Assembly: GCF_024296925.1 (NCBI RefSeq)
Contig: NZ_CP101125.1
Span: forward strand, 932,501 to 996,500
Length of the DNA stretch: 64,000 nucleotides
DNA from: Pseudomonas nunensis
GTDB lineage: Bacteria > Pseudomonadota > Gammaproteobacteria > Pseudomonadales > Pseudomonadaceae
Reading direction: 5' to 3'
Shown here: one piece after another, positions 1,265 through 39,647 of the stretch
Numbering within the stretch: position 1 is the stretch's first letter
Layout: every line of letters starts with the position of its first letter
Notes under the pieces: generated by a model
What the model was told of the DNA's origin: nothing
The model's database searches: none
The model's input: the letters and a program-made list of their open reading frames with translations, nothing else
Position numbers and translations under genes: made by a program

Positions 1265-2494
1265 ATGCCCGCAACGCTGTCCTTTTCCATCAAACAGGCT
1301 CGACGTCTGGCACTGGCTGCCCAAGGGTTCAACGGGCGTCAGCCGCCAGCGGCGATCAAACCGGTGCAGCTCAACCGGCTGATCGAACGCCTGGGCATCT
1401 TGCAGATCGACTCCGTCAATGCGTTAGTGCGTTCGCACTACCTTCCGCTGTTTTCCCGTCTTGGTAACTACTCACCCGAACTGCTCGATCAGGCTGCCTG
1501 GAGTCAGGGCCGGCGACGCACGTTGTTCGAATATTGGGGCCATGAAGCTTCGCTGTTGCCGTTGTCCATGTATCCGTTGATGCGCTGGCGCATGCAGCGT
1601 GCGACCCGTGGCGAAGACATCTATCAGCAATTGGCGCGTTTCGGTCGTGAGCAACAAGACACGATTCGTCGGGTGCTGGCATCCGTTGAAGAGCTGGGCG
1701 CGTTGGGTGCGGGAAGCCTGTCGACCCGCCAGGAACGGGCCGGGCCGTGGTGGGACTGGAGCGCCGAGAAGCATGCGCTGGAATGGTTGTTTGCCGCCGG
1801 TGAAGTAACTGTCGCCGGGCGGCGTGGCTTCGAGCGACTTTATGATCTGCCGGAGCGGGTGATTCCTTCGGCGATTCTCCAGCAACCTTTGCTCACCGAA
1901 GCCGAGGCTCAGCGCGGGTTGTTATTGCATGCGGCTACGGCGTTGGGTGTCGGCACGGAAAAGGATTTGCGCGACTACTTTCGTTTGAACCCGGCCGACA
2001 GTCGGTTGCGATTGGCGGAGCTGGTCGAGAGTGGAGAGTTGCTGGCCTGCGAAGTGCAAAGTTGGCGGCAACCGGCCTACTGTTTGCCCGAGCCCAAAGT
2101 GCCGCGCAAGGTCGAGAGCAGCGCGTTGCTGTCGCCGTTTGATTCGCTGATCTGGGAGCGCAGCCGCACTGAGCGCATGTTCGATTTTCGCTATCGGCTG
2201 GAGATTTACACGCCGCAGGACAAGCGGGTCTACGGCTATTACGTGCTGCCGTTTTTGCACAATGAACGGATTGCTGCGCGAGTTGATCTGCGCGCTGAAC
2301 GGGCGCTGGGCCGGTTGGCGGTGCATGCGGTACATGAGGAAGAACCGGGGCTGGATGAGGCGGGGATGCTGGCGTTGGCGGTCAATTTGCGGCAAATGGC
2401 GGATTGGCTGGGGTTGGAGCATGTGCAGTTGAATTGTCAGCGGGTGAGTGCGGATCGGTTGAGGGTGGCATTGGCCAGCGTTGGCGGTGATTGA
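1265..2494 (+). CDS. YcaQ/AlkX-type winged-helix DNA glycosylase (HTH_42 family)
   Basis: 409 aa. It belongs to the HTH_42 (DUF1006) superfamily, whose E. coli member YcaQ (AlkX) unhooks interstrand DNA crosslinks. The sequence LGILQIDSVN near residue 50 has the Gln-hydrophobic-Asp motif expected at the active site of the YcaQ branch. Further family marks are SLLP, the FEYWGHEA motif and a C-terminal LSPFDSLIWERSR stretch. The start at 1265 follows AAGGAGGT at the right spacing. It stands alone, followed by a REP hairpin. A role in repairing alkylation or crosslink damage is inferred from the family. Confidence 0.85.
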   Translation: MPATLSFSIKQARRLALAAQGFNGRQPPAAIKPVQLNRLIERLGILQIDSVNALVRSHYLPLFSRLGNYSPELLDQAAWSQGRRRTLFEYWGHEASLLPLSMYPLMRWRMQRATRGEDIYQQLARFGREQQDTIRRVLASVEELGALGAGSLSTRQERAGPWWDWSAEKHALEWLFAAGEVTVAGRRGFERLYDLPERVIPSAILQQPLLTEAEAQRGLLLHAATALGVGTEKDLRDYFRLNPADSRLRLAELVESGELLACEVQSWRQPAYCLPEPKVPRKVESSALLSPFDSLIWERSRTERMFDFRYRLEIYTPQDKRVYGYYVLPFLHNERIAARVDLRAERALGRLAVHAVHEEEPGLDEAGMLALAVNLRQMADWLGLEHVQLNCQRVSADRLRVALASVGGD

Positions 2495-2501
2495 AAGGAC
2501 G

Positions 2502-2571
2502 CCTTCGCGGGCAAGCCTCGCTCCTACAAAGGATCGCGTAATCCTGTAGGAGCGAGGCTTGCCCGCGAAGG
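2502..2571. repeat. REP doublet (REPIN-like inverted repeat)
   Basis: Two 27-nt arms, CCTTCGCGGGCAAGCCTCGC... at 2502-2528 and its complement at 2545-2571, enclose a 16-nt loop. It lies between two converging gene ends (1265-2494 plus, 2584-3930 minus). This is the Pseudomonas REP type, with the GCGGGCAAGC core, mobilised in trans by RAYT transposases. Confidence 0.9.
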
Positions 2572-2583
2572 GCTCGACGCGAT

Positions 2584-3930
2584 TTAACGGCGGACTTGCT
2601 TCAACGTCTCAGCAATCAAAAACGCCAATTCCAGCGACTGATCGGCATTCATCCGCGGATCGCAATGGGTGTGGTACCGATCCGACAACCCGTCTTCAGT
2701 AATCGGCCGCGCGCCACCAATGCATTCGGTGACGTTCTGCCCGGTCATTTCGATGTGGATACCGCCGGCATAGGTGCCTTCCGCTTCGTGCACCTGGAAG
2801 AACTGCTTCACTTCGCCGAGGATCTGCGCGAAGTCGCGGGTCTTGTAGCCGCTGCTGGCCTTGATGGTATTACCGTGCATCGGGTCGGAACTCCAGAGCA
2901 CTTTCTTGCCTTCACGTTCCACGGCACGGATCAGTTGTGGCAAGTGATCGCCGACCTTGTTCGCGCCCATCCGCGCGATCAGGTTCAAGCGGCCCGGGTC
3001 GTTGTCCGGGTTGAGCACATCGATCAGGCGAATCAAGTCTTCCGGGTTCATGCTCGGGCCGACTTTCACCCCGATCGGGTTGTTCACTCCGCGCAGGAAT
3101 TCCACGTGTGCGCCGTCAAGCTGGCGGGTGCGGTCGCCGATCCACAGCATGTGGGCCGAGCAATCGTAGTAATCGTTGGTCAGGCTGTCGCGACGCACGA
3201 AGGCTTGTTCGTAGTTCAGCAGCAGCGCTTCGTGGGCGGTGAAGAAACTGGTTTCGCGCAGTTGCGGCGAACTGTCCATGCCGCAGGCGCGCATGAAGGC
3301 CAGGGTTTCATCGATGCGATCGGCCAAGTGGCTGTACTTCTCGGCCAGGGCCGAGTTGGCGATGAAATCCAGGTTCCACTTGTGCACTTGATGCAGGTCG
3401 GCAAACCCGCCCTGGGCAAAGGCGCGCAGCAGGTTCAGAGTCGCGGTGGACTGGTGATAGGACTGCAGCAGGCGTTCCGGGTCTGGAACGCGGCTTTTTT
3501 CGTCGAAACCGATGCCGTTGACGATGTCGCCACGGTAGGCCGGCAAGGTTACGCCGTCGATGGTTTCGTCATTCGACGAACGCGGTTTGGCGAACTGGCC
3601 CGCCATGCGCCCGACCTTGACCACCGGGCAGCCGGCGGCGAAGGTCATGACGATCGCCATTTGCAGCAGCACTTTAAAGGTGTCGCGGATCTTCGCGGCG
3701 GAGAATTCGGCGAAGCTTTCGGCGCAGTCGCCGCCCTGCAACAGAAACGCGCGGCCCTGGGTTACTTCGGCAAACTGACGGCGCAACTCCCGGGCTTCAC
3801 CTGCAAACACCAGCGGCGGATAGCTGGCCAGGGTTTGCTCGACGTGCAGCAAATGCGCGGCGTCGGGATAGCGGGGTTGTTGCTGGATCGGCAGGGCACG
3901 CCAGCTGTCAGGGCTCCAGGGTTGGCTCAT
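2584..3930 (-). CDS. Class II 3-deoxy-7-phosphoheptulonate (DAHP) synthase
   Basis: 448 aa. It catalyses condensation of phosphoenolpyruvate and erythrose 4-phosphate, the first shikimate-pathway step. Class II landmarks visible are [27 protein letters not shown], the [14 protein letters not shown] stretch, [12 protein letters not shown] and [18 protein letters not shown]. Start is the ATG at 3930; a GTG one codon upstream (3933) is an alternative. Its position next to the spermidine-synthase-like, crotonase and deaD genes resembles the PAO1 locus around PA2843 from memory, which is the housekeeping class II enzyme rather than the phenazine one. Confidence 0.95.
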
Positions 3931-4076
3931 CACGGTCTCTAGTGTTTACGCACGGGTCCTTATGTTATCAGCAATTAGTGCGTGACCTGTTCCCGTCGCT
4001 TCGCGGACAATCGCGCCTTTGCCGCTTCATGTTGCGGTGTATTGGTTGCCGGGCCCGGTGACGATCTGGAGACGAA

Positions 4077-4832
4077 ATGACTGAGGAGCGCGTCGAGCAT
4101 CTGCTCGCCGAGGTACAGGATGAGTTCGGCGTGATTCGCGTGCTGGAAGTGGCCGATTATCGCTTTCTCGAATTCGGCGATGCCATCGAGCAAAGCTGCG
4201 TGTTCACTGCTGACCCGAGCTGGCTGGAGTACGACTACACCCGCGCCATGCTGATCGGTGCGTTGTGCCACGAGCAGCCGGAAAGCGCGCTGTTCCTTGG
4301 TCTCGGCGCCGGGACGCTGACCCAGGCTTGCCTCAAGTTCCTGCCGCTGGAAGACGTCGAAGCCATCGAGTTACGCCCCGACGTGCCGCGCCTGGCCATC
4401 GAATACCTCGGGCTGGATGACGATCCCCGACTGTACATCCGCGTTGGCGATGCGCTGGAGTTGCTGGAAACGGCTGAGCCGGCCGACCTGATTTTCGTCG
4501 ATCTCTATACCGATGTCGGGCCGGGCGTCGGGCATCTGGCCTGGAGCTTTCTGGAAAACTGTCAGAAACGCCTGAACCCGGGTGGCTGGCTGGTGATCAA
4601 TCAGTGGGCCACCGACGACGGTAAACCGCTGGGGGCGGCATTGTTTCGCGGGCTCTATCACCGGCATTACTGGGAACTGCCGGTGAAGGAGGGCAACGTG
4701 ATCCTGATCGTGCCGTCGGAGCTGGATCAGGAACTGGACATGGACAGCCTGATCGCCCGGGCCGAAGGGCTGGCGCCGCAGTTGGGGTATTCGTTGCTGT
4801 CGTTGATCAAGGCGATTCGGCCGGCGACTTGA
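4077..4832 (+). CDS. Spermidine-synthase-like methyltransferase-fold protein
   Basis: 251 aa Rossmann-fold protein of the polyamine aminopropyltransferase/spermidine synthase-like group. The SAM/dcSAM-binding glycine loop is FLGLGAGTLTQ, followed by EAIELRPDV and DLIFVDLYTD. It is shorter than genuine SpeE, and the fully conserved catalytic set of spermidine synthase cannot be confirmed by eye, so the substrate is open. It is divergent from the DAHP synthase gene. Confidence 0.8.
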   Translation: MTEERVEHLLAEVQDEFGVIRVLEVADYRFLEFGDAIEQSCVFTADPSWLEYDYTRAMLIGALCHEQPESALFLGLGAGTLTQACLKFLPLEDVEAIELRPDVPRLAIEYLGLDDDPRLYIRVGDALELLETAEPADLIFVDLYTDVGPGVGHLAWSFLENCQKRLNPGGWLVINQWATDDGKPLGAALFRGLYHRHYWELPVKEGNVILIVPSELDQELDMDSLIARAEGLAPQLGYSLLSLIKAIRPAT

Positions 4833-24532: not shown

Positions 24533-25176
24533 TCACACTAAGGCGTTACGTTTTGCCATCTCGATGAGCGCTACCAGGGATTTGGCCTTGAGTTTTTGCA
24601 TGAGTCGTTTTTTATAAGTGCTTACCGTCTTGTTGCTCAGGAACATGCCCTTGGCGATTTCCTTGTTAGTGCGCCCTTGAGCGAAAAGTTGCAACACCAT
24701 CAGTTCCCGGTCATTCACGGACTTGAACAATTCAAGTTCGGCGTAGCGCACATCATCCGGGCGCACCGGGTTCAAGGCCTGGCTCGGGAAGTAGTTGTAG
24801 CCCGACAGAACGGCCTTGATGGCGCTCATCAGTTCACTCAGATCTTCCTGTTTGCACACATACCCCGAAGCGCCGGATTGCATGCAGCGAATCCCGAACA
24901 GCGTTGGGCATTGCGCCGTCAGCACCAGTGTTTTCAACGGGGTGCTCATTGCATTGAAGCGAGAGAGAACTTCCAGCCCGTCGAGTTTGGGAATGCTGAT
25001 GTCGAGAATGATCAAGTCGGGCATGCATTCACGAACCATCTGCATGGCATCGACCCCATTATCGGTTTCGCCCACGACTTTATAACCCTCATGCTCCAGC
25101 AGCATCCGGACAGCAAGACGGATGACGGGGTGATCGTCGACAATAAAAACGTTTTGTGGACAGATATCTCTTTGGT

Positions 25177-25188
<12 letters not shown>
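24533..25188 (-). pseudogene. BvgA/EvgA-type LuxR response regulator, probable one-base frameshift near the 5' end
   Basis: Receiver plus GerE/LuxR helix-turn-helix regulator, partner of the kinase downstream. The receiver reads NVFIVDDHPVIRLAVRM (25153-25103 on the minus strand), with phospho-Asp in IILDISIPKLDGLEV, Lys in YVCKQED and HTH FLSNKTVSTYKKRLMQKLKA. Upstream of Asn the frame hits TGA after 9 codons with no ATG, GTG or TTG. An ATG at 25188 opens the neighbouring frame (MGFDTKEISVHK). Adding one base to the four-T run at 25152-25155 joins the two as ...SVHKNVFIVDD... and gives 218 codons. Either a real inactivating or phase-type deletion, or a sequence error; a non-canonical ATC/ATT start is less likely. 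Confidence 0.7.
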
Positions 25189-25322
<134 letters not shown>

Positions 25323-25866
25323 ATTAACAAGCTTAAGCTCTGCTTTCGATAGGGAGTGCTCTAAGCTTGATGTTACTGACACACCACTATCTATGGCATA
25401 CCCCGGAAGCCTCAGGATTTTGCCGGTTTGCTTTTGACTCCCTAAACCGGGCCATATCGATGCATAGTCGATCTCGCCAGTTCAAGCCTCTTAGAGGTGT
25501 CGATACAGGGGAGATTTGGCTTGCCTTACGAGTCCCTCACGATCCATAAAGATCGCGACGGAGATGGGGCAGCGGGTTTCACAAAGCAGCGCAATGACGA
25601 TAGTATTGTGCCATTACCCAGGGGCACCCGGATGCCCAGTAACCCTCGCCTAGCGGGTGAGGAGGCCGGTAGGAGCTCGGCATGGATCAGCTACGCTACA
25701 GGAACGCAGACAGACAGGGATTATATCCGGAGCATTTACTCGGGAGCTTTCGTCGTGCCTGAGATTTGACGAACATCTGACCAACTCATCTGACCAACGC
25801 CCCCGATGAGTCGCCCAGCCGAACATAATCAGACGAACAACATTTCAATAACTAAGGGATTCATGC
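25323..25866. other. Intergenic boundary region before the accessory genes
   Basis: 544 nt that should contain the promoter of the BvgA-like gene (minus) and of the gene at 25867 (plus). An 8-bp inverted repeat CAAGCTTA/TAAGCTTG is at 25328-25335 and 25362-25369. Two short open frames (25367-25549, 25497-25769) have no good ribosome site or recognisable composition and are not called. No tRNA or integrase is seen at this apparent core/accessory boundary. Confidence 0.5.
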
Positions 25867-26148
25867 ATGAGTGAGCAGGAACAGGAATACGCTTTTCACC
25901 CAGCTGATCTAATCGAATATGCGATGGACAAACCAATTGGCGCAGCCCGCGCGGCGTTGACAATGGGGTTGGAAGAAGCTGACGTTTACCCCGATATTAT
26001 CATTGGTGAACTGTCAGGGAACATGGAGTTGAATCAGCGTTTCCTGAAGAAACTCACGGGTGCCTTGCGGAAGAACCCAAATAAAATTATTGGTGATATG
26101 CCAAATCATATCAAGGCTCTTCAGTTGGAGCGCGATCTCGGATTATGA
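25867..26148 (+). CDS. Small unknown protein heading the ABC-3C-like operon
   Basis: 93 aa, acidic, no TM. It is predicted mostly helical with segments LIEYAMDKPIGAARAALTM and LNQRFLKKLTGALRKNP. ATG preceded by AAGGGA. It ends 54 nt before the nuclease-like gene in the same direction, so co-transcription is likely. I do not recognise the family; it might be an accessory or antitoxin-like component of the downstream system, or an unrelated neighbour. Confidence 0.6.
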   Translation: MSEQEQEYAFHPADLIEYAMDKPIGAARAALTMGLEEADVYPDIIIGELSGNMELNQRFLKKLTGALRKNPNKIIGDMPNHIKALQLERDLGL

Positions 26149-26202
26149 CTTCCTTTAACTATTATTTTGTGGGTGGCGCACCTGGTCGGAGAGGTGTAGC
26201 TA

Positions 26203-27273
26203 ATGTCTTTTGGTGAGAACACCATCAAGCTCCCTCCAGCCCCGGAATTCGAGCTCACGGCACTGGATATAGAAAAAGGTGAGCCAGTCCACCCTCTGGA
26301 TCGTCTGCAGATCATGTCAGCAGATACTTGGGAGGTCTTTACGCTGGAGTTCGTTTCTTACCTGGGCAACGGCTACGAGTCCGTAACCCGCTGTGCTGGT
26401 GCGGGAGACAAAGGGCGTGATGTTATCGCCAAGTTTGCAACGGGGTGGGACAATTATCAATGCAAGCACTACAAAGATAAGTTGAGCGTTGCAAACGTAG
26501 TCGCGGAACTGGGTAAGCTGGTTTACTACACGTGGAGGGAAGACTACACCCTGCCGCGTGATTATCGCTTTGTTTCGCCGAAAGGATGTAGTTCTGATTG
26601 CATTGATATGCTGGTCAACAAGTCTCGCATCAAGGTCGAGATCATCAAGCGCTGGGATAAGGTCTGTAAGGATAAGATCACGAAGACAGAGTCCATTCTT
26701 CTTGAGGGTGCTCTGTTGGACTATCTCAACACCATCGACTTTTCTTTTGTTGATGAGATGTCTTCCCAGGAGTTGATTGCTAAGCATGCGCTGACACCGT
26801 ATCACTCAACGCGTTTCGGGAGCTACCATCTAAAGCGACCACAGGTTCAGAAATCCGTACCTGATGCTGTTGGAGATAACGAGAAAGTCTACATTGAAGC
26901 TCTCCTGCACGCTTTCTCCGATGCCGATGGGGCAGAGTATTCACTTGATAGCGTCATGGACACTGATTACAAGGATGACTTGGAGCGAGCGAGGATTAAC
27001 TTCTTCAGCGCTGAGTCGCTGGAGATGTTTTCCCGCGATGCGTTTCCTACGGGGTGCTATGAAAGCCTCAAGTGCGAGTGTCACGAAGGTGTTCACAGTG
27101 TAGTACGTAAAAAGTTCGATGATGGGTATCAACGGTTTCTCGACGTCAGCACTCACTGCGTGAAGATTCAATATGACGCCCATCCTCTACGTCATTTCTT
27201 GCAGACCTCTGATCGAAAGGGGCTATGCCACCAGTTGGTGAACGACCTCAAGTTTAAATGGATCAAGAAATAG
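26203..27273 (+). CDS. ABC-3C-type system protein with Mrr/PD-(D/E)XK-like nuclease domain
   Basis: 356 aa. An N-terminal restriction-endonuclease-like module (about 40-105) shows WEVFTLEFVSYL, then GAGDKGRDVI and a YQCKHYKD strand. This is the D...QxK active-site pattern of Mrr-like enzymes. The remaining 240 residues are an unassigned, largely helical domain with a Cys/His-rich patch (CYESLKCECHEGVH). GAGGTGTAGCTA precedes the ATG. It directly abuts the middle-component gene (no gap) and is followed by the ATPase, the order described for ABC-three-component systems. Predicted effector or specificity subunit; no experimental role known to me. Confidence 0.75.
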   Translation: MSFGENTIKLPPAPEFELTALDIEKGEPVHPLDRLQIMSADTWEVFTLEFVSYLGNGYESVTRCAGAGDKGRDVIAKFATGWDNYQCKHYKDKLSVANVVAELGKLVYYTWREDYTLPRDYRFVSPKGCSSDCIDMLVNKSRIKVEIIKRWDKVCKDKITKTESILLEGALLDYLNTIDFSFVDEMSSQELIAKHALTPYHSTRFGSYHLKRPQVQKSVPDAVGDNEKVYIEALLHAFSDADGAEYSLDSVMDTDYKDDLERARINFFSAESLEMFSRDAFPTGCYESLKCECHEGVHSVVRKKFDDGYQRFLDVSTHCVKIQYDAHPLRHFLQTSDRKGLCHQLVNDLKFKWIKK

Positions 27274-27708
27274 ATGATGAATTCAAAGGACTTGTACAAT
27301 AGCCCTGTTGAGATTGGTGCGCGCATCGTTTTGTTGCTCGCGGGCTTGTCCCGGGAGCTTGACTTGGATGAGCTAATCTTCTTTGACTATGCGTCGATTT
27401 ATAGCAGTGACTTTGAAGGGGAGCCGAGTCTGCACCCTGTCTTACTGAATCGACTTGCCGAACTGGTTCGTAGGCGAGAAATATTTCCAGGCGCGATTAA
27501 GCTATTCATTGCTAAGGGATTGATGACTTCTCGGGTTGACGAGCATGGTGTTCGCTATTCAATCACTGACCCCGGTAGGGCATTTTCCACCAAGTTGACC
27601 ACTGAGTATCACGCAGATTTCAAGCAGCGTGTTTTGTGGGTCGAGAGGAATATTGATTACCTCGCGGCTCAGCGTCGCAGTATTTATAAAATTGACAGGG
27701 TGGTCTGA
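27274..27708 (+). CDS. ABC-3C-type middle component (MC2-like)
   Basis: 144 aa. The opening LYNSPVEIGARIVLLLAGLS followed by DLDELIFFDYASIYSSDF is characteristic of the small middle components that accompany ABC-3C ATPases. The C-terminal half looks like a winged-helix (FIAKGLMTSRVDEHGVRYSI). It starts immediately after the nuclease gene stop and overlaps the ATPase start by one base (TGATG), implying coupled translation and a fixed stoichiometric complex. Confidence 0.75.
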   Translation: MMNSKDLYNSPVEIGARIVLLLAGLSRELDLDELIFFDYASIYSSDFEGEPSLHPVLLNRLAELVRRREIFPGAIKLFIAKGLMTSRVDEHGVRYSITDPGRAFSTKLTTEYHADFKQRVLWVERNIDYLAAQRRSIYKIDRVV

Positions 27709-29525
27709 TGTATATTGAAAGTGTGGTTGTGAGTGGCCCTGATCGGAGAGACGCTTCAGTGTATTTTACGAAGGGTGCTAATGTTGTTCAGGGTGGTTCT
27801 AATACGGGCAAATCCTACATTGTTCAGTGCATCAAATTTGCCTTGGGTTCAAATACGCCCCCAAAGACTATAGATGAGTCTTTGGGCTACACCACGGTCA
27901 GGGTTAAATTTATAAATGATGATGCGACCTCTTTTACTATTGAAAGAGGGCTTTCTGCAAGTTCAAAGCCTACCTTTTATGATGAGAGTGGGGAGGTTCA
28001 AGTTCTGGGTGTAAAGCACAACCCTACGAAAATGAATTCTATTTCCAACCAAATTTTGGACAGGTTGGGACTCAATGGAAAACTTCTGCTGAAAGGCACT
28101 ACTTCGTTAAACAATGCCTCTTTCTCTCTTCGCGATTTCGAAAAAGTTTTTTTGATGGATGAAACGCGAATTGTTGCTGATTACTCTCCATTGGGTACAG
28201 GCCAAAATGATGGAGCCACTAAAGAAAAATCTATCCTAAAGCTGCTGCTCACCGGAAAAGACGACGCCGGGGTTAAACAGGCTAAGAAGGAGCTGGCGTC
28301 AAAGGGGGCGTTGAGACATCGAGTTGCTGCGGTCGAAGACATCATCAGGCAATTCTATCCGGATGATGACGCCGCTGAGGCCCTTGAGCTCCAGAAGCTC
28401 AACTCGTTTACCGCCCAGGTCGCGCTCCGACTGGGGGTGGCCGAAAATGAGCTGGAAGGTGCGTTCCATTCGAGTGAAGACCTGTTTACCCAAAAAGCCA
28501 ACCAGCTCTCCGAGCTGGAGTCTGTTGAAGGCAAACTCGCAGAAGATAAGGCGCTTCTCGACCGATTCGACATGCTTGGCCAGAAGTACGAATCAGACCG
28601 CCAGCGCCTGCAGGGCATTGAGCAGGCGGCAGTTCTGCTTGATGGTTCAGACGCTGTGCTATGTCCAACCTGCGGCAACCATTTTGACTCCGAGTCATGC
28701 ACGACGGACGTTGAGGATATCAAAAAAGGTGTTTCCTTCGAGTTGAACCGAATTTCGAAGAACATTCACGAGCTCGCTGAAGCCCAGGGATCCTTGACCG
28801 CAGCGATCGAACGAAACGCCTCCAGCGCTGAGGCCACCAAGACGTCCATCGCCGCACTGGAGAGGTTGATCTCATCCGAGATCCAAGATTCGGTACAGGC
28901 CGTAAGCGACCTGAAGGAGCTCGCCTCGTGCCTTAGGCAAGACAAATCTGCACTGGAACGGCGTGTAGCCGATAAGGTCAGGCTGAAGGGAGAGCTAAAA
29001 CGGCTCGGTATTTTGCTGCTTGAAGAGCAAAACACCTATATGCCTGAAAGCTTTGAGGAAACAGCCCAGCCTCTGGTGAAAGAGATTGAAGCGATCTTGA
29101 AACGGTGGAGCTTCCCGAATTACAGCCCGGTAACATTCAATTTCGCAACACGAGACATCACCATTGGTGGGAGTGCGAGAGGCAATTTCGGCAAAGGGTA
29201 TCGAGCGATCGCTTCAGCTGCGTTCGCGCTGGGGCTGATGAATTTGCTGAAGCTTTCTGGGCGTCATCCTGGTTTTGTCGTGCTCGATTCGCCACTGACT
29301 ACGTACAAGGAAGGGGATCCGGAGCCAGGGGAGGAAGATAAAGAAGTAGCTGAGGATATGATATACGCGTTCTATCAGGACATTGCAGATAACTTCAAAG
29401 ATTCTCAAGTTATCGTATTTGAGAATAAGGAGCCTGATACGGCTATCATTCCTCATTTGAATTACGAGCACTTTACTAAGAGCAGGGGGAATGGTCGATA
29501 TGGCTTCTTTCCGCTAAAAAACTGA
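27708..29525 (+). CDS. ABC-3C-type SMC/Rad50-like ATPase
   Basis: 605 aa. N-terminal Walker A is GGSNTGKSYIV (about 29-39). A long coiled coil (about 180-450) is interrupted by a zinc-hook-like CPTCG near residue 323, and the C-terminal lobe carries a signature-like segment and Walker B GFVVLDSPLTTY. This is a Rad50/RecN-style split ATPase head. In the operon it would drive or license the nuclease-like partner; this is inferred from the ABC-3C class. The first 500 bases are visibly more AT-rich than the rest. Confidence 0.8.
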   Translation: MYIESVVVSGPDRRDASVYFTKGANVVQGGSNTGKSYIVQCIKFALGSNTPPKTIDESLGYTTVRVKFINDDATSFTIERGLSASSKPTFYDESGEVQVLGVKHNPTKMNSISNQILDRLGLNGKLLLKGTTSLNNASFSLRDFEKVFLMDETRIVADYSPLGTGQNDGATKEKSILKLLLTGKDDAGVKQAKKELASKGALRHRVAAVEDIIRQFYPDDDAAEALELQKLNSFTAQVALRLGVAENELEGAFHSSEDLFTQKANQLSELESVEGKLAEDKALLDRFDMLGQKYESDRQRLQGIEQAAVLLDGSDAVLCPTCGNHFDSESCTTDVEDIKKGVSFELNRISKNIHELAEAQGSLTAAIERNASSAEATKTSIAALERLISSEIQDSVQAVSDLKELASCLRQDKSALERRVADKVRLKGELKRLGILLLEEQNTYMPESFEETAQPLVKEIEAILKRWSFPNYSPVTFNFATRDITIGGSARGNFGKGYRAIASAAFALGLMNLLKLSGRHPGFVVLDSPLTTYKEGDPEPGEEDKEVAEDMIYAFYQDIADNFKDSQVIVFENKEPDTAIIPHLNYEHFTKSRGNGRYGFFPLKN

Positions 29526-29930
29526 TTCGATGCTGTGATGTAGTCCGTCACTCGTCAAGTGGGTGGTGATCGACTAACTTTATTTTTTGTTAGCAGTAAC
29601 GCAGCTTCTGGCAGATTGAACAACGATATCGGTCAAAGCTCAAAAGTGTTCGGTCGTACGGTCTGGCTCGGTGCGATTGATGGCCGTCAATTTGAACGCA
29701 AATCGAGTCCGATGAGATCGAACTGTAAACCCAGGCTGGAGTGTGGCGAGCCCCGAGTCATGGCGTCGTCAACAATGATTAACGATAAAGCAGTGAGCGA
29801 TCGCCGGTTTCACTGATTAATCCGCCTTGTCTAATCAAGATTGAGGCTGCGCGCCAGGGCTGGGTGGATGGACGGTTATGGATAGCACAATTTTGTCTCT
29901 CCCGAGCCATCGGGATACGGAGTGATTTGC
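29526..29930. other. Intergenic region after the ABC-3C-like operon
   Basis: 405 nt. An 85-codon frame at 29559-29816 has a Ser/Arg/Asn-rich composition and no recognisable fold, so it is not called. No clear terminator is seen. The 3' part holds the promoter area for the DUF3800 gene. Confidence 0.4.
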
Positions 29931-30983
29931 ATGGAATGCTTTCGAATTGATGAGAGCGGCTACACCGGATTTGACCTGTTGAACGAAGCGCAACCCTTTC
30001 AGGGGGCTTCAGCGATCGGTATCGATGACGCAGAGGCTGCGCGCCTTATTCGTGAATATTTTCCCAAGCTTCAGGCGCCTGAGCTGAAGTACCGGTCGCT
30101 CTCAAAGCGTGTAACCAACCATCCCAGGCTTCTGGGGCTAATCGGCGAACTGCTGGCCAATCACAAGTGCATTACCTACCTCTGCGACAAGCGCTTCGCA
30201 TTGCTCTTGAAGTTTGTGGATTACGGGGTTGAGCCCCATTACTACGAGCGCAACATTAATTTCTACGAGGATGGGCGAAATTACGCCTTAGCGTCTGTGT
30301 TGTATTACGCAGGGGCTCGACTGTTGGGTGACGGGGCGATGGAGAACCTGGAACGTGCATTTCAAAATGCTATGAAGCTCAAAAGCCTAGCAGCGCTTTC
30401 CGATTTAGTTACCGCCGCCCGGCAGACCGATTGGAGAAAGCTCGCAGATGCTACGGGGCCTCTGGTGTACGCCGATCCTGACTGTCTGGCGGCAATTGCA
30501 ACCCCAGGGGTTACAACAGACATGGCATTACCCGTTCTCATGGCGCTCATCAGTCAAATGGAGCTGATGAGTGACGGGCCGTATAGGGTTGAGCATGACC
30601 AGTCGAGGAATCTGCTGACCTACCATGATCTGCTCCAGCGTCAGATCGATCACACGGATGAGGCTGAGTTTCGGCAGTCTGCACTCGCGAGCATCCGGTA
30701 TCCGCTGAGGCTGAGCGAGGTGACCCAGGTCGATTCTAAGACGAGCCCAGCCGTCCAGCTTGCGGACGTGCTCATCGGCGCCACGATTGAGTCCGCGCAA
30801 CGTATGACTGGACGAATCACTGATGGATTGGATCCTCAGTGTCTGGCTGAACTGTATCGCGATGATCAGATCATCCACATGCTGCCATCCTTGGATTTGG
30901 AGGGGCAGCGTGAATTCAGGAAGGGGACTCGGGCAGCGGCGTTGATCGATTACTTCGCGGAAAATTTTTCATCGTCCCAGTGA
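29931..30983 (+). CDS. DUF3800 domain protein
   Basis: 350 aa. The N-terminal FRIDESGYTGFDLL has the DESG strand that defines DUF3800, and the C-terminal part has SPAVQLADVLIGA, the second family motif (acidic residue after QLAD). The two acidic motifs suggest an RNase-H-like or nuclease-type catalytic core, but activity is unproven for the family. The ATG at 29931 is preceded by GGAG; a GTG three codons upstream is possible. DUF3800 genes are frequent in defence islands and on mobile elements. Confidence 0.75.
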   Translation: MECFRIDESGYTGFDLLNEAQPFQGASAIGIDDAEAARLIREYFPKLQAPELKYRSLSKRVTNHPRLLGLIGELLANHKCITYLCDKRFALLLKFVDYGVEPHYYERNINFYEDGRNYALASVLYYAGARLLGDGAMENLERAFQNAMKLKSLAALSDLVTAARQTDWRKLADATGPLVYADPDCLAAIATPGVTTDMALPVLMALISQMELMSDGPYRVEHDQSRNLLTYHDLLQRQIDHTDEAEFRQSALASIRYPLRLSEVTQVDSKTSPAVQLADVLIGATIESAQRMTGRITDGLDPQCLAELYRDDQIIHMLPSLDLEGQREFRKGTRAAALIDYFAENFSSSQ

Positions 30984-31008: not shown

Positions 31009-32327
31009 TTAGCCATGATGCGGCAACAGCGAGTAACGCTCAAACAGCGAGCGATAGAATGCAATCAGCACCTCCTCGGCATTAGGCTGCTGAAGCTCGT
31101 GAACACCGAAGCGATACACCTCATACCCCACCAACCTCAGAGCCCTGTCAGCTGCCATCATCTCCGCGTAGAGACGGGGATTTGAGCGCCCGTCTGTGTC
31201 GGAATAGTGGTGTTTGCCATCAATTTCGATGACAACCCTTGCTCCACCGGGAAGCAGCAGAAGGAAGTCCATGCGTGACCTTAGCAATGCCTCCTTGCCG
31301 CGCCGTGACACCGTCTGGGGATCCCAGTGAAACCAGACCTCGGGCAGCAAGACCGGAAGCTCGGGAATCGCTGTCGTGAAGGTTTTGAAGAAGCTGGTAA
31401 AGGCCAGTGCTTGAGGGGGCGATGATTTCGGCAGGCACCCTTCAAGACGTCGATACAGACTTTTCTTGGCTTGGCTTTCCTCGATGCCATGAGTCTGGGC
31501 GTACCAAGCTTGTAGGTCGCGCCACAGGAGACCAGAACTCCCTATCGGACGGTCATAGATCAGAACATCCATTGGGTCGGACATCACCTCGATATCGTTG
31601 TCCAGGGCGTTGCCCAGTCGCAGGTCTGGCTTTCTGGTAGAGGCGAAGATGAGATTCTTTGGTGCTGACTGTTTGCCTGATCCTACGTAGGCCAAGGAGG
31701 CCGTCAGGAAGGCATCTTCTCCCACCCCAACGACAATGTGGACTCCACACGCTTTGAGGGTATCGTTGACGACCGCGATGAATTTTCGTTGAGCAGGTTC
31801 GCTGGGCAATACCCGCGAGGAAGCCAAGGCTTCGACGAATCGGCCAAATCGGGCATGCGAGGACTGAAACGCTCCGAGTTTGTCAAAGAGCGTCGCCACA
31901 TCCCAATCGGGATTTTCGATGTAGTGTCGAGTCGCCAGAACTCACTCAGCACTTGTTCGAACGCAGTCCTGGTCATAAACAGGTCAATGTTGTTGAGCTT
32001 TTCTGCCAGTTCTCGCCGGTAGCGACCAGGGATGACAGGCGCTGTTCCATCGTCCCACACCAGCTCTTGAAGCTGGTCTCGCTCATGAACCTCAAAGCCA
32101 ATCAGCTCCAAGGCTTTCTGAGCAGCAGCCACCCGTTGTGCATCATTCGCGTCTTCTACCGCTTTCTCAAGATGGCGCCTTTTTGAGCTGTACTCACTGC
32201 AGGTATCGAGACCCAACGAGAAGAGCAGCTCAGGGATTCGCGTATCCGTGTAGTGGTCTTTCTGGTTGCCTAAGATCTGGCTGAAGGTGTCTCTCAGGCT
32301 GGTGAGGTTTTGCTGGGTTCGAGGCAT
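31009..32327 (-). pseudogene. Frameshifted gene ending in a PD-(D/E)XK nuclease domain
   Basis: Two frames join into one product of about 439 aa. The N-terminal part (32327 to about 31930) starts MPRTQQNLTSLRDTFSQIL and includes SKRRHLEKAVEDANDAQ, faintly like AbiJ N-terminal domains. The C-terminal part (about 31930 to 31009) reads HYIENPDWDVATLFDKLGAF and ends in a nuclease core, RMDFLLLLPGG then VVIEIDGKHHYS (D...E-x-D-x-K). The segment is 1319 nt, one base short of a whole number of codons, and a single added base near 31925-31932 restores the fusion. Likely inactivated endonuclease or abortive-infection-type gene, or a sequencing error. Confidence 0.65.
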
Positions 32328-32430
32328 GCGCAAGGGGGTGCTCCGAGGTCGTTGAAAGGATGTTATCACCACCAGTCGGAACATTGAGCAAGCCAGCATA
32401 TCAATTACAACCACTGATCCTCTAACGACA

Positions 32431-34462: not shown

Positions 34463-35767
34463 TCACTCGAAGCCTTTGGGATCCCTCAGGAACTCTTCGG
34501 CGATGTGCAGCGCGCTGATGTGCTGCGCATGGACGATGGGATTGCCGCATGAGCAATCTGTGGTCTGCGCTTCCCGTGTCCACACTCCGCTTGCCTGCCT
34601 CCGATATGTCCAGCCCGTGATGAAGCCGGCGCCGCTCAGTCGGAGTCCTGGGTGGTTGACGGTGAGTTCACAAACCTCAAATAGGTCGGGCCCGCGAGGT
34701 ATGACGCCGACGCCCTTCTGGTAGAGCGTCAGGTGATCGAGGGTTGGATGCTTGATCAACGTGTCTGCTTCGAATGCTACCGTGCCATTCTCGTTGATTA
34801 ACTTCTCGATCTGAGGGAAGCGAAGGGGCTTGCTCGGGTCGGCTGAGCCATAGAGCACTATGCCCGGGATTTCGACGAAGATTCCACTGTGTGGGTTACC
34901 ATCAATCGAATCCTGGGTATCCAGAATCTTTGCACCACGATAGAACGCTGTTTGCGCACCTGCGATTTTCACAAAGCTCGGATGGTATTCCGGAAGCTCC
35001 AATGTTCGCTTGAACGCAGGCAGATTTTTGAGGCTTGCTTCAGACTTGATCTCCTCCCAAGGCAAGCCCAGCAGCGATCTCAAGATCGGATCTTCTGCGG
35101 GAGAGGGAAAGAGCGTGTTCGTGCCGGTTAAGCCACGGGCAGCGGCATACGCCTGCAGAACGTCGCTCGAGACAGTGATTTGTGCGAGAAAGCAATTCTG
35201 TGGAATCGGATTGTGCAGAGGGCCGAGAAGCCAAGCTGACTGAGCCACGGTGCGCGGCCTGTAGCCCTCAACGGTCAAGGTAGCCAAGTTGACCAGGCCT
35301 ACATGATTAGCGGCCTGCTTACTGAGCACATACAGATGGCCAGTGCCGATCACAGGTGCATAGCGGGCCATGCGCTTTCTGACCATCACCGCCACCTCGT
35401 CACAGTCCTCGCACAGCTCTAGAGTGGTCGCTTCAGTGTATTTGTGGCTGGCAAACCACGCGGCTACTGCTGGGCTGGAGGTGCAATCCACGTAAAACGA
35501 ACGCCACCCGTAGTGTTGAAGGAGGGCCTGCTGATAGCCAAAGTCTGCTCGATGTTTAGCGATGTATGCATCCAACACGCTTTGGGAGTAGCGGCACCAT
35601 TTGAGCATTTCGCTCGGTATACAACCCTTTCTATCAAAGGACGTGCCGATGGAGGGTGCTCCCACCTCACCGTAATGGGAGGTCTGGCCACGAAACAAAA
35701 CATCCTCACCGAAGCTCCCAATGAGCTGGTTTAACTCGTCGACGCTTTTTGCTGCATATTGCTTCAT
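34463..35767 (-). CDS. FRG-domain protein
   Basis: 434 aa. The N-terminal FRG domain shows the naming motif VLFRGQTSHYG, then LLQHYGWRSFYVDCTSSPAVAAWFAS, the conserved HYG...DxT...AxxFA pattern. A C-terminal Cys pair and His follow (DCSCGNPIVHAQH). GGGGGAGG lies upstream of the ATG. FRG domains are often found in phage-defence and toxin contexts, and a nucleotide- or NAD-linked activity has been suggested from fold comparisons. Nothing in this sequence settles the substrate. Confidence 0.75.
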   Translation of the reverse strand: MKQYAAKSVDELNQLIGSFGEDVLFRGQTSHYGEVGAPSIGTSFDRKGCIPSEMLKWCRYSQSVLDAYIAKHRADFGYQQALLQHYGWRSFYVDCTSSPAVAAWFASHKYTEATTLELCEDCDEVAVMVRKRMARYAPVIGTGHLYVLSKQAANHVGLVNLATLTVEGYRPRTVAQSAWLLGPLHNPIPQNCFLAQITVSSDVLQAYAAARGLTGTNTLFPSPAEDPILRSLLGLPWEEIKSEASLKNLPAFKRTLELPEYHPSFVKIAGAQTAFYRGAKILDTQDSIDGNPHSGIFVEIPGIVLYGSADPSKPLRFPQIEKLINENGTVAFEADTLIKHPTLDHLTLYQKGVGVIPRGPDLFEVCELTVNHPGLRLSGAGFITGWTYRRQASGVWTREAQTTDCSCGNPIVHAQHISALHIAEEFLRDPKGFE

Positions 35768-36496: not shown

Positions 36497-37780
36497 TCAG
36501 ATCGGCACAATGATCCGACTGCGAGCTACACAAACATTGTCTTTCACTGCATAGCATTCCACGTAATGATCGCCTTGGAAGGTTGAGTGCTCGGTGATTT
36601 GGCTGTGGCCGCTGTCGATACGGATTTCGCCGCGAATCATATTTCGCTCGATGGCTTGGGGGCCCACATTCTTAACCTTCCAGTAGATCTTATAGGGTGG
36701 CGGCACATCGATCTCGGCGACCCAGAATGTCAACTCACGCTGCTTCGGAATCCGGTAGGTCATGACGCGAGACATGAGATTGCGAAGTCGGTCACCCTCG
36801 TTCTTAACCGAGCAATCGATGCGTAGGGTGTACTGGATGTCGAGGCTGAATTTTTGACCGATGAACTGCTCGACGTTCTTGACGCGGTTTTCCGTGATGG
36901 CCTGCTTCTTTTCCTGCTCGACGTATTCGGGGAAATGCTCGCCAAACACCGTGCTCCACCGCTCATGGGCAGCCTCGGCATCGTCAAGAGCCTCCTGTAA
37001 GCGCCTCAGCGCCTTTTTGGCTTTGGGGTGGAAGTTTCCTGATTTATTGACGATGGAGCCGCTACCGGGTGCACGCCACTGCTCCTTCTCCTCATCGATG
37101 TCTACCAGGTACGCGAAAAAATCCCGAGTCATTTCGCTGTAAGCGGCATAGGACTTGGCGTCGTAGTCCGTGGTGCTCTTGAGGAACTGGTAGCACAGTG
37201 TATCGATGAGCATCCCCTTTACCGGCACGCCATGATCGTTCTTCCAGGCTCGCACCATTTTGCAAAGACGCTTGAGGTTATGATTTTTGTCCTGGTTTAG
37301 CGTGTTGATCTCTTCGATTTCAGCGACCGGATTGCAAGTTTCCCAGCTGCCTCCATCATTGGCATCAGGGTAGGTGTAACTGCCATCCTCATGCTCGAAT
37401 GCCGGGAGCACCTCCACCACGTAGTCCGAGAAATTTATCGACACTACCTGCTGCTGGGCCCTCACCTCATGGTTCGGGAAGCGCTCTTTCAGCGCAAGCC
37501 GGATCTCACCCAGCAACGACGACTGGCTGTTGTTCTCGTAGCGCTGGAAGCGATCGTATACCGACCACGGCAGCACGAACGCCATATCCAGATCGCTCAC
37601 TCCGTGGACGGCGGTATGTCGACCGTACGAGCCGACCTGGCGGCAATGCTGGGTTTCTGAGGCACTGTCGTAGTATTTTCCGTTTAGCTTCTCAGTGACC
37701 TGCCGGTAGCTTTTGGAGATCTCGTCGGCATTCTTGACCGCCAGGTTTCTACGAAACTGCTCGAAAAGCTCTTTACTCAT
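36497..37780 (-). CDS. CD-NTase/SMODS nucleotidyltransferase with C-terminal AGS-C-like sensor
   Basis: 427 aa. The polymerase-beta-fold catalytic site is QVGSYGRHTAVHGVSDLDMAFVLP in outline: GS motif, then DLD for two metal-binding Asp. The third acidic strand appears as VVEVLPAFEH. A helical SMODS/OAS-like domain follows to about 300. The last 110 residues (from WKVKNVGPQAIERN to the end) resemble the adenylyl/guanylyl-and-SMODS C-terminal sensor. Such enzymes make cyclic or linear oligonucleotide signals that activate an effector. It overlaps the upstream SLATT gene by 8 nt, so the pair is one unit. Confidence 0.85.
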   Translation of the reverse strand: MSKELFEQFRRNLAVKNADEISKSYRQVTEKLNGKYYDSASETQHCRQVGSYGRHTAVHGVSDLDMAFVLPWSVYDRFQRYENNSQSSLLGEIRLALKERFPNHEVRAQQQVVSINFSDYVVEVLPAFEHEDGSYTYPDANDGGSWETCNPVAEIEEINTLNQDKNHNLKRLCKMVRAWKNDHGVPVKGMLIDTLCYQFLKSTTDYDAKSYAAYSEMTRDFFAYLVDIDEEKEQWRAPGSGSIVNKSGNFHPKAKKALRRLQEALDDAEAAHERWSTVFGEHFPEYVEQEKKQAITENRVKNVEQFIGQKFSLDIQYTLRIDCSVKNEGDRLRNLMSRVMTYRIPKQRELTFWVAEIDVPPPYKIYWKVKNVGPQAIERNMIRGEIRIDSGHSQITEHSTFQGDHYVECYAVKDNVCVARSRIIVPI

Positions 37781-38393
37781 GGGTGCAGACTTCCTTCAGT
37801 GAGAGTAGAAGTTCCGGGTGTGCGGTAAGCCATGACCCGCCCGCCAAAGCGATCAGAATCACTACGATCAGTGCGTAAGCTGAAAACGGGATTTTGTCCC
37901 TGAAGAACGTAAATTCACGGTGTTCTGCGATCCAGTCGATCTGTTGATCCCAAAAGAATTTTTTATGAGCAAGCCAGCCCGAAAACAGAATGTGCTTCCT
38001 CTGGCAGGCCGATCGGAAATCAGTGGTGATTTGATCCAGTTCGGCTTGATCGGCGGCGGTGAATTGCAGGTTGGATTTGCAACGAGCCGACATGCCCTTC
38101 AGCTGATCAAGCAACTGAGTCAGCTTGTTTCCAGCCTGGAAATATTGCTCTTTGGTGTCGGCGTAATAGGTGATGTAGAGGCTGCAGATGCCGATGACCG
38201 TGATGAGCGCTGAGACATGCTTTGCCGCCAAGAGATCGATGTAGAGCGCTAGCACACCGATCACCAAGGAAATCAGACCAATCCACCCTGGCGCTTTCTC
38301 AACGATGTCATAGGTGGAGAAGTGAAGTTTGGCTGAGTAACCGACGTCGTACGCCTTCTCGGCGATCAACTTCATTGCAACCTGCTGATCCAT
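37773..38393 (-). CDS. SLATT-type membrane effector
   Basis: 206 aa. Two adjacent TM helices (about 38-58 and 60-78, GWIGLISLVIGVLALYIDLL and VSALITVIGICSLYITYYAD) are followed by a long coiled helical region. A third hydrophobic segment (AYALIVVILIALAGGSWL) sits near the C-terminus. The N-terminal helix plus 2TM unit is the SLATT layout (SMODS- and SLOG-associating 2TM effector), predicted to perturb the membrane when the partner nucleotide signal appears. Overlap with the CD-NTase gene supports this reading. Confidence 0.75.
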   Translation of the reverse strand: MDQQVAMKLIAEKAYDVGYSAKLHFSTYDIVEKAPGWIGLISLVIGVLALYIDLLAAKHVSALITVIGICSLYITYYADTKEQYFQAGNKLTQLLDQLKGMSARCKSNLQFTAADQAELDQITTDFRSACQRKHILFSGWLAHKKFFWDQQIDWIAEHREFTFFRDKIPFSAYALIVVILIALAGGSWLTAHPELLLSLKEVCTHE

Positions 38394-38972: not shown

Positions 38973-39443
38973 CTAGTCCTTCTGCCAGTACCGATACACC
39001 GTGGAGCTGGCCAATCCAAGCCTCCGCGCCACCTCAGCCTGCCTCAATCCTAACGCTTTCAGTTCTCTCACGGCATCGGCATTCTCGGTTTTGCCAGGCT
39101 TACCTGAAGGTCTCTTTTTCAGCTCTTTGCCCATAAATTGATTCCGGACAAGCTGCTCTCCTCCGTCTGCTTTGAATGAGGCAAGCTCTGCGCGTGCTCG
39201 CTCTAGAGTGGTGTCGGTAGGCTCATCCTTCTGGATAGCGACACAGAGGGCCATAAGAGCAACAGGATCGAAATGGAGGGCCTCTGCTATCTCGATCAAT
39301 TTCGAAACCGTGATATTGCTCTTTCCTTGCTCCAGCTTTCCTATGTTTGCTTTCGCACTGACGTCTGCCAAATCACCGTAGTCAAAACCTCGGATTGTCC
39401 TGATTGCCCTGAGTGCTCCGGCGATCTCATTCTTAAGCGACAT
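38973..39443 (-). CDS. XRE-family regulator with C-terminal recombinase-type HTH
   Basis: 156 aa. The N-terminal lambda-repressor-like HTH (about 5-60) includes DLADVSAKANIGKLEQGKSN and a VSKLIEIAEAL helix. A second, Hin/resolvase-like HTH at the end reads LGLRQAEVARRLGLASSTVYRYW. Two DNA-binding domains at opposite ends joined by a basic linker is an unusual but recurrent Pseudomonas layout. Start at 39443 after AGGGCAGACC; an ATG at 39474 is possible. Likely a local regulator of the accessory genes. Confidence 0.75.
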   Translation of the reverse strand: MSLKNEIAGALRAIRTIRGFDYGDLADVSAKANIGKLEQGKSNITVSKLIEIAEALHFDPVALMALCVAIQKDEPTDTTLERARAELASFKADGGEQLVRNQFMGKELKKRPSGKPGKTENADAVRELKALGLRQAEVARRLGLASSTVYRYWQKD

Positions 39444-39647
39444 GGTCTGCCCTAAAAGCGAGGATAGAGCCATAACGCCTGTCTTCCGATAAACCACGTT
39501 TAGTGGTAGTATCGGAAATGTGCGGTAACGCCTTCTCAGAGCTAAGCCGCACAATCATAGTTTCAGAGTCTTTTCGAGATGGGCATCAGGCAGTTTGAGC
39601 GTCCTGAGCGCCCAAACATATCACATGTATTGTCAGAGGCTTTTTGA

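Follow-up and report, generated by a model that had tools for sequence, protein, structure and literature searches.

A Lamassu (ABC-three-component) operon of Pseudomonas nunensis with a clade-specific fourth gene and a conserved leader block

The window analysed here, a 64,000-nucleotide stretch at positions 932501-996500 of the 7.33-Mb single-contig genome of Pseudomonas nunensis, carries a Lamassu operon of the ABC-three-component (ABC-3C) kind, a known defence system. The first-pass annotation of this DNA had already used the ABC-3C name, and the name is correct. It had described the interval 25867-29525 as an operon of three genes; these three, lmuA, lmuC and lmuB, are present, but the interval begins with a fourth gene that had been left unnamed and that we call sml. 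Both sml and the conserved leader block in front of it were overlooked, and novelty is confined to these two parts of an otherwise known system. In the open-access literature searched we found no account of either, which is not proof that they are unpublished. The operon itself adds one more case from Pseudomonas to a system already described.

The profile search that had been proposed as a check matched all three core proteins to ABC-3C/Lamassu families in Pfam and PADLOC (E-values in Table 1). LmuA scored 116.8 bits against the C-terminal domain 6 (CTD6) profile (cut-off 26.4) and LmuC 106.3 bits against the middle component 2 (MC2) profile (cut-off 26.9), both well over the cut-offs, and the PADLOC models for LmuA, LmuC and LmuB gave 337.2, 117.3 and 473.1 bits, the last over residues 1-603. 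LmuB also matched Pfam AAA_23, at 27.5 bits with a cut-off of 27. The coupling of the genes is as tight as had been claimed: lmuA and lmuC adjoin with a gap of 0 nt (27273/27274), while lmuC and lmuB overlap by one base in TGATG (27706-27710). LmuC opens as noted before, with MMNSKDLYNSPVEIG, and the CPTCG hook is seen in the sequence of LmuB. That the three proteins form an obligate complex, as had been proposed from the coupling, is plausible by analogy.

To define related loci, the best 80 of 123 LmuA relatives from a scan of a genome collection were used (loci are designated L and genomes G). LmuC was detected in 80 of the 80 loci and LmuB in 77. Two of the loci without LmuB (L016, L070) stop at a contig edge and the third (L022) yielded a weak LmuC fragment only; at least one operon gene is broken into pieces in L006, L060 and L062. 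The linkage of the three genes ranges from Pseudomonas to archaea and Paenibacillus. Thus the two features by which the ABC-3C assignment was to be checked, similarity to middle components and three-gene linkage elsewhere, were both found. The source genome has a single LmuB. LmuA has matches in 145 of the 72,556 plasmid records searched; among the 20 homologues listed from them, 17 already bear the label "ABC-three component system protein".

The effector LmuA has a D...QxK motif (D73 ... Q86-C87-K88) that is invariant in 81 of 81 sequences (the window and the 80 loci), as are E44 and D69. In its predicted structure (41 sequences, mean pLDDT 87.9, pTM 0.59), a helix (residues 40-54) is followed by three strands (60-64, 74-78, 81-87), a helix (96-111) and a further strand (120-124); D73 immediately precedes the second strand, and Q86 and K88 close the third. 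This order of helix, strands, helix and strand is that of PD-(D/E)xK nucleases. The earlier wording "Mrr-like" has the right strength: we retain it, and nothing stronger, because the generic Mrr_cat profile matches LmuA below its cut-off.

In LmuB, both hook cysteines are invariant in 77 of 77 sequences. The catalytic glutamate of Walker B is absent; the aspartate of this motif is followed by serine in 74 sequences and by threonine in one, with a gap in two. This agrees with the proposal in PMC10586767 that ATP hydrolysis is slow or absent, with serine instead of glutamine as the substitute here. For LmuC, a search for solved relatives gave two unrelated weak matches alone (E 0.027 and 0.71).

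We consider it very probable that the operon encodes a type II Lamassu of the CTD6/MC2 class of ABC-3C, which acts by abortive infection and has an Mrr-like nuclease as effector. Family membership, gene linkage, the nuclease motif with its element order and the absent catalytic glutamate are established here; sensing, release, tetramer formation and cell death are taken from the literature on relatives, mostly of the Cap4 type. In that literature LmuB is proposed to sense DNA ends or secondary structures, with abortive infection as the outcome (PMC10586767, PMC12904381, PMC12409362). In the system described here, LmuA would be kept inactive in association with LmuB and LmuC. LmuB, which is Rad50-like and has the zinc-hook motif, would sense aberrant DNA such as ends or hairpins from phage or plasmid replication, whereupon LmuA would be freed, assemble into an oligomer and cut DNA indiscriminately, and the infected cell would be halted (abortive infection). 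The earlier description of the class as little studied is outdated, since the Lamassu superfamily takes in both ABC-3C and DdmABC and an activation model has been published (PMC10586767, PMC12409362).

Several points weigh against this reading. The published activation model is based on Cap4-type effectors, and that it also applies to an Mrr-like LmuA is assumed. The Walker B change in PMC10586767 is from glutamate to glutamine, whereas serine is found here, and PMC12409362 reports doubts on some published Lamassu phage data. The Mrr_cat profile scored 15.5 bits on LmuA with a cut-off of 21. Solved relatives were sought by sequence, and none were found for LmuA at E up to 1 or for LmuB at E up to 0.01. 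The role of the fourth protein, discussed below, is conjectural. Still, a defence function is supported by the profile matches, the linkage, the invariant motif, the LmuA model, the neighbours in the island (see below), the homologues on viral contigs and plasmids and the published activation model. A Rad50-like ATPase with a nuclease might also be a housekeeping DNA-repair complex, for which the zinc-hook motif and weak matches of LmuB to Rad50, SMC and RecN models could be cited. However, the NCBIfam matches of LmuB (these models and an archaeal SMC-related one) were all far below cut-off, and the PADLOC LmuB match is far stronger than that to any repair model. The sparse distribution (12 of 398 Pseudomonas genomes have lmuA), the occurrence of homologues on viral contigs and plasmids and the defence-island setting all speak against it, and we regard a repair function as extremely improbable.

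The fourth gene, sml, encodes an acidic helical protein of 93 aa. The window copy had no match in the family searches (Pfam, PADLOC, NCBIfam, PHROGs), and 49 members gave scattered weak matches only (best E 0.001 in Pfam, for two members, and 0.059 in PHROGs). Its sequence found no solved relatives, and the three matches of its profile were at chance level (E 0.82 and above). With the sequence alone 69 homologous clusters were found at E up to 0.001, and a profile gave 75 (E up to 0.01); apart from one compost metagenome, the homologues listed with an organism name are from Pseudomonas. Using its own sequence, sml was found in 6 of 398 genomes of the genus, and using a profile in 4 of 398 genomes of the family. 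This gives 8 different genomes, including that of the window, plus one viral contig, and in all 8 genomes and the viral contig lmuA lies downstream; in G315 it is in pieces. The 12 genomes of the genus with lmuA divide into 6 with sml, whose LmuA is about 70% or more identical, and 6 without, at 28-39%. Likewise, sml was present in 7 of 7 loci with LmuA at least 70% identical and in 0 of the 73 others among the best 80 of 123, at least 500 bp of upstream DNA being available for 79 of the 80. The gene is restricted to one Pseudomonas clade of the system. Its dN/dS values of 0.06-0.20 (six listed pairs that differ at silent sites, which are near saturation in some) indicate that it is under purifying selection. 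An AlphaFold2 model (pLDDT 84.7) consists of five helices. The distances of sml correlate with those of LmuA (0.87), LmuC (0.90) and LmuB (0.93), as expected from joint transfer alone. Most likely the protein is a clade-specific accessory, probably a regulator or adaptor. A clade-specific fourth component, if true, would offer a handle on how Lamassu spares its own cell.

Two other explanations of sml were considered. As a small, all-helical protein encoded by the first gene of an operon, it could be a HigA/Xre-type DNA-binding repressor of that operon; its HPADL...GL start looks HigA-like by eye, and a gene for HigA is found close to a plasmid-borne Lamassu from another clade. In a profile comparison, however, the probabilities for HigA (0.46%) and Xre (0.21%) were not above those of reversed controls (0.34-0.51%), whereas HigA against Xre, the positive control, reached 93%; the sml alignment was shallow (Neff 2.1) and part of the Xre set was in the wrong frame. 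We rejected a HigA/Xre origin as a candidate and consider such a repressor very unlikely. Alternatively, sml and the leader could be passengers of a mobile cassette without a role in Lamassu, which is doubtful but has to be taken seriously. The gene is limited to one clade, 73 of the best 80 of 123 LmuA loci lack sml, one operon with sml (L084/G352) has no leader, and the leader also precedes other cargo; on the other side stand the purifying selection on sml and the fact that lmuA adjoins it in 8 of 8 genomes.

The DNA homology between the window and other loci starts at 25573 for L002, L003, L005 and L174 and at 25593 for L006, and ends at 29575-29579. The cassette therefore includes about 290 bp upstream of sml. 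A model of this leader, R1, was built from 9 copies (the window included), which it then finds; the copies are few and several come from near relatives. R1 scores 153 bits on the window, itself a building sequence, at 25568-25759. In L004 and L007, where BLAST homology starts only at sml, R1 finds the block with 91 and 97 bits, both loci being part of its building set. By R1 there is no leader in the operons without sml (L095-L100) or in the G352 operon (L084, L093, L187), which has sml, so that 7 of the 8 sml-bearing genomes show the leader. BLAST with the leader matched 6 of 398 genomes; the match in G352 is only around the start of sml, which leaves the core in 5, and G088 has a leader by R1 that BLAST missed. 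Counts from draws of the genus are lower bounds. Two queries each against plasmid and phage records gave no leader match; in viral contigs, three pattern scans gave in turn nothing, the known contig alone, and this contig with three others; R1 finds no leader in these three. The known 64-kb viral contig (L088/L174) has the leader and the four-gene cassette a few kb from a cell-wall hydrolase gene and an Rz lysis gene, and because of these neighbours the cassette appears to be prophage cargo.

The leader also stands, without an intact sml, in front of other genes. In G390 (L189) its core precedes Septu PtuA (4.1e-228) and PtuB (1.2e-126). In G124, in G209 and on a second contig of G111, the gene that comes after it encodes an RTX protein with calcium-binding repeats. 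These repeats were matched by Pfam in L201 (1e-54) and in the incomplete L202 (6.6e-20), while L203 was assigned through DNA 82% identical to L201 in the RTX gene region. L005 has a second leader copy 4.3 kb further upstream, after which come the truncated start of an sml gene and two genes that Pfam does not match. These adjacent genes between the two leader copies (1605-4726; 565 and 479 aa; best PADLOC E 0.0051) are possibly an undescribed defence pair.

Within the leader core (25574-25696), alignment A5 shows an invariant CATGGAT and an invariant GGA upstream of it. The promoter-like pair is one of 2 sites in the region on both strands, where 0.7 are expected, and none was found in L203. 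For the terminator-like stem, a helix of 6 pairs was placed by eye on alignment A6 (12 rows, 70 cells), a procedure that favours the helix in the statistics. Pairing is possible in 88.6% of the cells and the covariation score is 0.429 (0/500 shuffles as high in both cases), and 7 cells are changed on both sides (1/500). The 3 pairs with two-sided change (82/500) and the 8 further pair types (262/500) are not unusual. Sliding the helix partner brings three of the figures down, the cells paired to 61.4% or less, the cells with double change to 5 or fewer and the score to 0.232 or less, but the pairs with double change still number 3 at offsets -1 to -3, and at -1 as many as 9 pair types are seen. 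Folded singly, the stem stretch clearly beats shuffles only in L004 (z -4.33; L203 -1.20, window 0.14, L201 0.93, L202 -0.29, L003 -0.31, L006 0.31). The stem of the window does not correspond to the minimum-energy fold and lacks a T run, that of L203 has 8 pairs and a T run, and on neither strand does the whole leader of the window fold better than shuffled sequences (z 0.21, 0.58). GGA, a motif of Rsm-type control, is more frequent than in single-base shuffles at the 0.05 level in 6 of 12 leaders and not in the other 6. Two candidates were rejected: Rfam gave no known RNA family at E up to 1 for the leaders of the window, L189 and L004, and for a leader peptide the start is conserved, but not, by eye, the residues past M-D. 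We infer that the leader is the promoter region of the operon; a function as RNA is a lead and is not established.

At E up to 1e-8, BLAST aligns only the core of about 92 bp between L189 and the window, L001 or L005. Between L189 and L003, L006 or L174 it aligns a gene on the right-hand side of the cargo (77-78%), the core of these three loci being seen by R1 and not by this BLAST, and the cargo between core and right-hand gene differs. This right-hand gene was not seen in the window, where a DUF3800 gene (29922-30983) follows the cassette. The block may be a reused promoter/leader or the border of a module. Since L189 and L203 also have about 700 bp of DNA in common left of the leader, part of the pattern may reflect a shared site of insertion. 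A more far-reaching proposal, speculative and rather unlikely, would be a reused regulatory leader: its promoter would give a transcript of about 170 nt containing GGA sites, and it would also include a ribosome site with a conserved start codon as well as the terminator-like stem. It would front at least four unrelated Pseudomonas accessory modules (Lamassu, Septu, the RTX-repeat protein and the unclassified pair), impose common attenuation or Rsm-type control on them and offer a homologous border for module exchange, with the 93-aa protein as a Lamassu-specific partner. How defence modules are quieted and exchanged is poorly known, and in this respect the leader outweighs the operon in importance.

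Table 1. Features of the Lamassu cassette in the window
Feature	Coordinates	Strand	Basis
Conserved leader block	25573..25775	+	Homology with other loci, model R1, alignment A5
Promoter-like pair TTCACA-17-TAGTAT	25578..25606	+	9/12 consensus matches; weak
Terminator-like stem, position conserved	25727..25744	+	Mixed covariation result over 12 leaders
sml (fourth gene), 93-aa acidic helical protein	25867..26148	+	dN/dS, constant lmuA linkage, five-helix model
lmuA, Mrr-like nuclease domain and C-terminal domain 6	26203..27273	+	PF20282 1.1e-33, PADLOC LmuA 4.4e-101, motif, nuclease-type element order
lmuC, middle component 2	27274..27708	+	PF20288 1.7e-30, PADLOC LmuC 1.5e-34
lmuB, Rad50/SMC-like ATPase with CPTCG hook	27708..29525	+	PADLOC LmuB 3.7e-142, Pfam AAA_23

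The operon sits in a defence island. An AbiJ_NTD3/DUF559-type gene (31009-32414, minus strand) is split over two overlapping frames; such a region also lies downstream in 5 of 8 other loci (L002, L003, L005, L006 and L174, not L001, L004 and L007). Further along are the gene for an FRG-domain protein (34463-35767, minus strand; Pfam 2.4e-07, PADLOC PDC-S15 2e-08) and a CBASS operon (36497-38393, minus strand) with a SMODS cyclase (36497-37780; PADLOC Cyclase 1.3e-172) and a SLATT_6 effector with two transmembrane segments (37773-38393, minus strand; 1.7e-76), close to which a helix-turn-helix gene is found (38973-39554). On the other side, between a response-regulator gene and the cassette, a long AG/CT dinucleotide repeat within 25089-25382 reads as a glycine-alanine run in one open reading frame and as a leucine run in another.

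Among known systems, a Lamassu variant with a second Mrr-type nuclease gene has the same LmuA-LmuC-LmuB core and likewise an extra gene directly upstream of lmuA. This second gene was seen in 12 of 79 loci (L029, L045, L046, L047, L048, L050, L051, L052, L056, L058, L065 and L066), with Mrr_cat above cut-off in the two scanned (L045, L047). Unlike sml, to which it is unrelated, it encodes in those two a nuclease of 265-285 aa. Four more loci (L010, L018, L027, L071) have related genes before lmuA, of which the one scanned, in L010, is a Methylase_S of type I restriction, and in plasmid L113 a type I R subunit gene lies downstream of Lamassu. The Septu (PtuAB) locus L189 has the leader core in common with the operon and a right-hand neighbour gene related to that of three Lamassu loci compared, but its cargo is PtuA and PtuB, without LmuC and without the 93-aa gene. 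Also close are Lamassu type II, ABC-3C and DdmABC, with which the operon shares the order of effector, middle component and SMC-like ATPase, the CTD6 and MC2 domains, the CPxCG hook and the missing Walker B catalytic glutamate. It differs from them in an effector that is Mrr-like and not Cap4, in a Walker B serine in place of glutamine, and in the additional 93-aa gene ahead of lmuA in this Pseudomonas clade.

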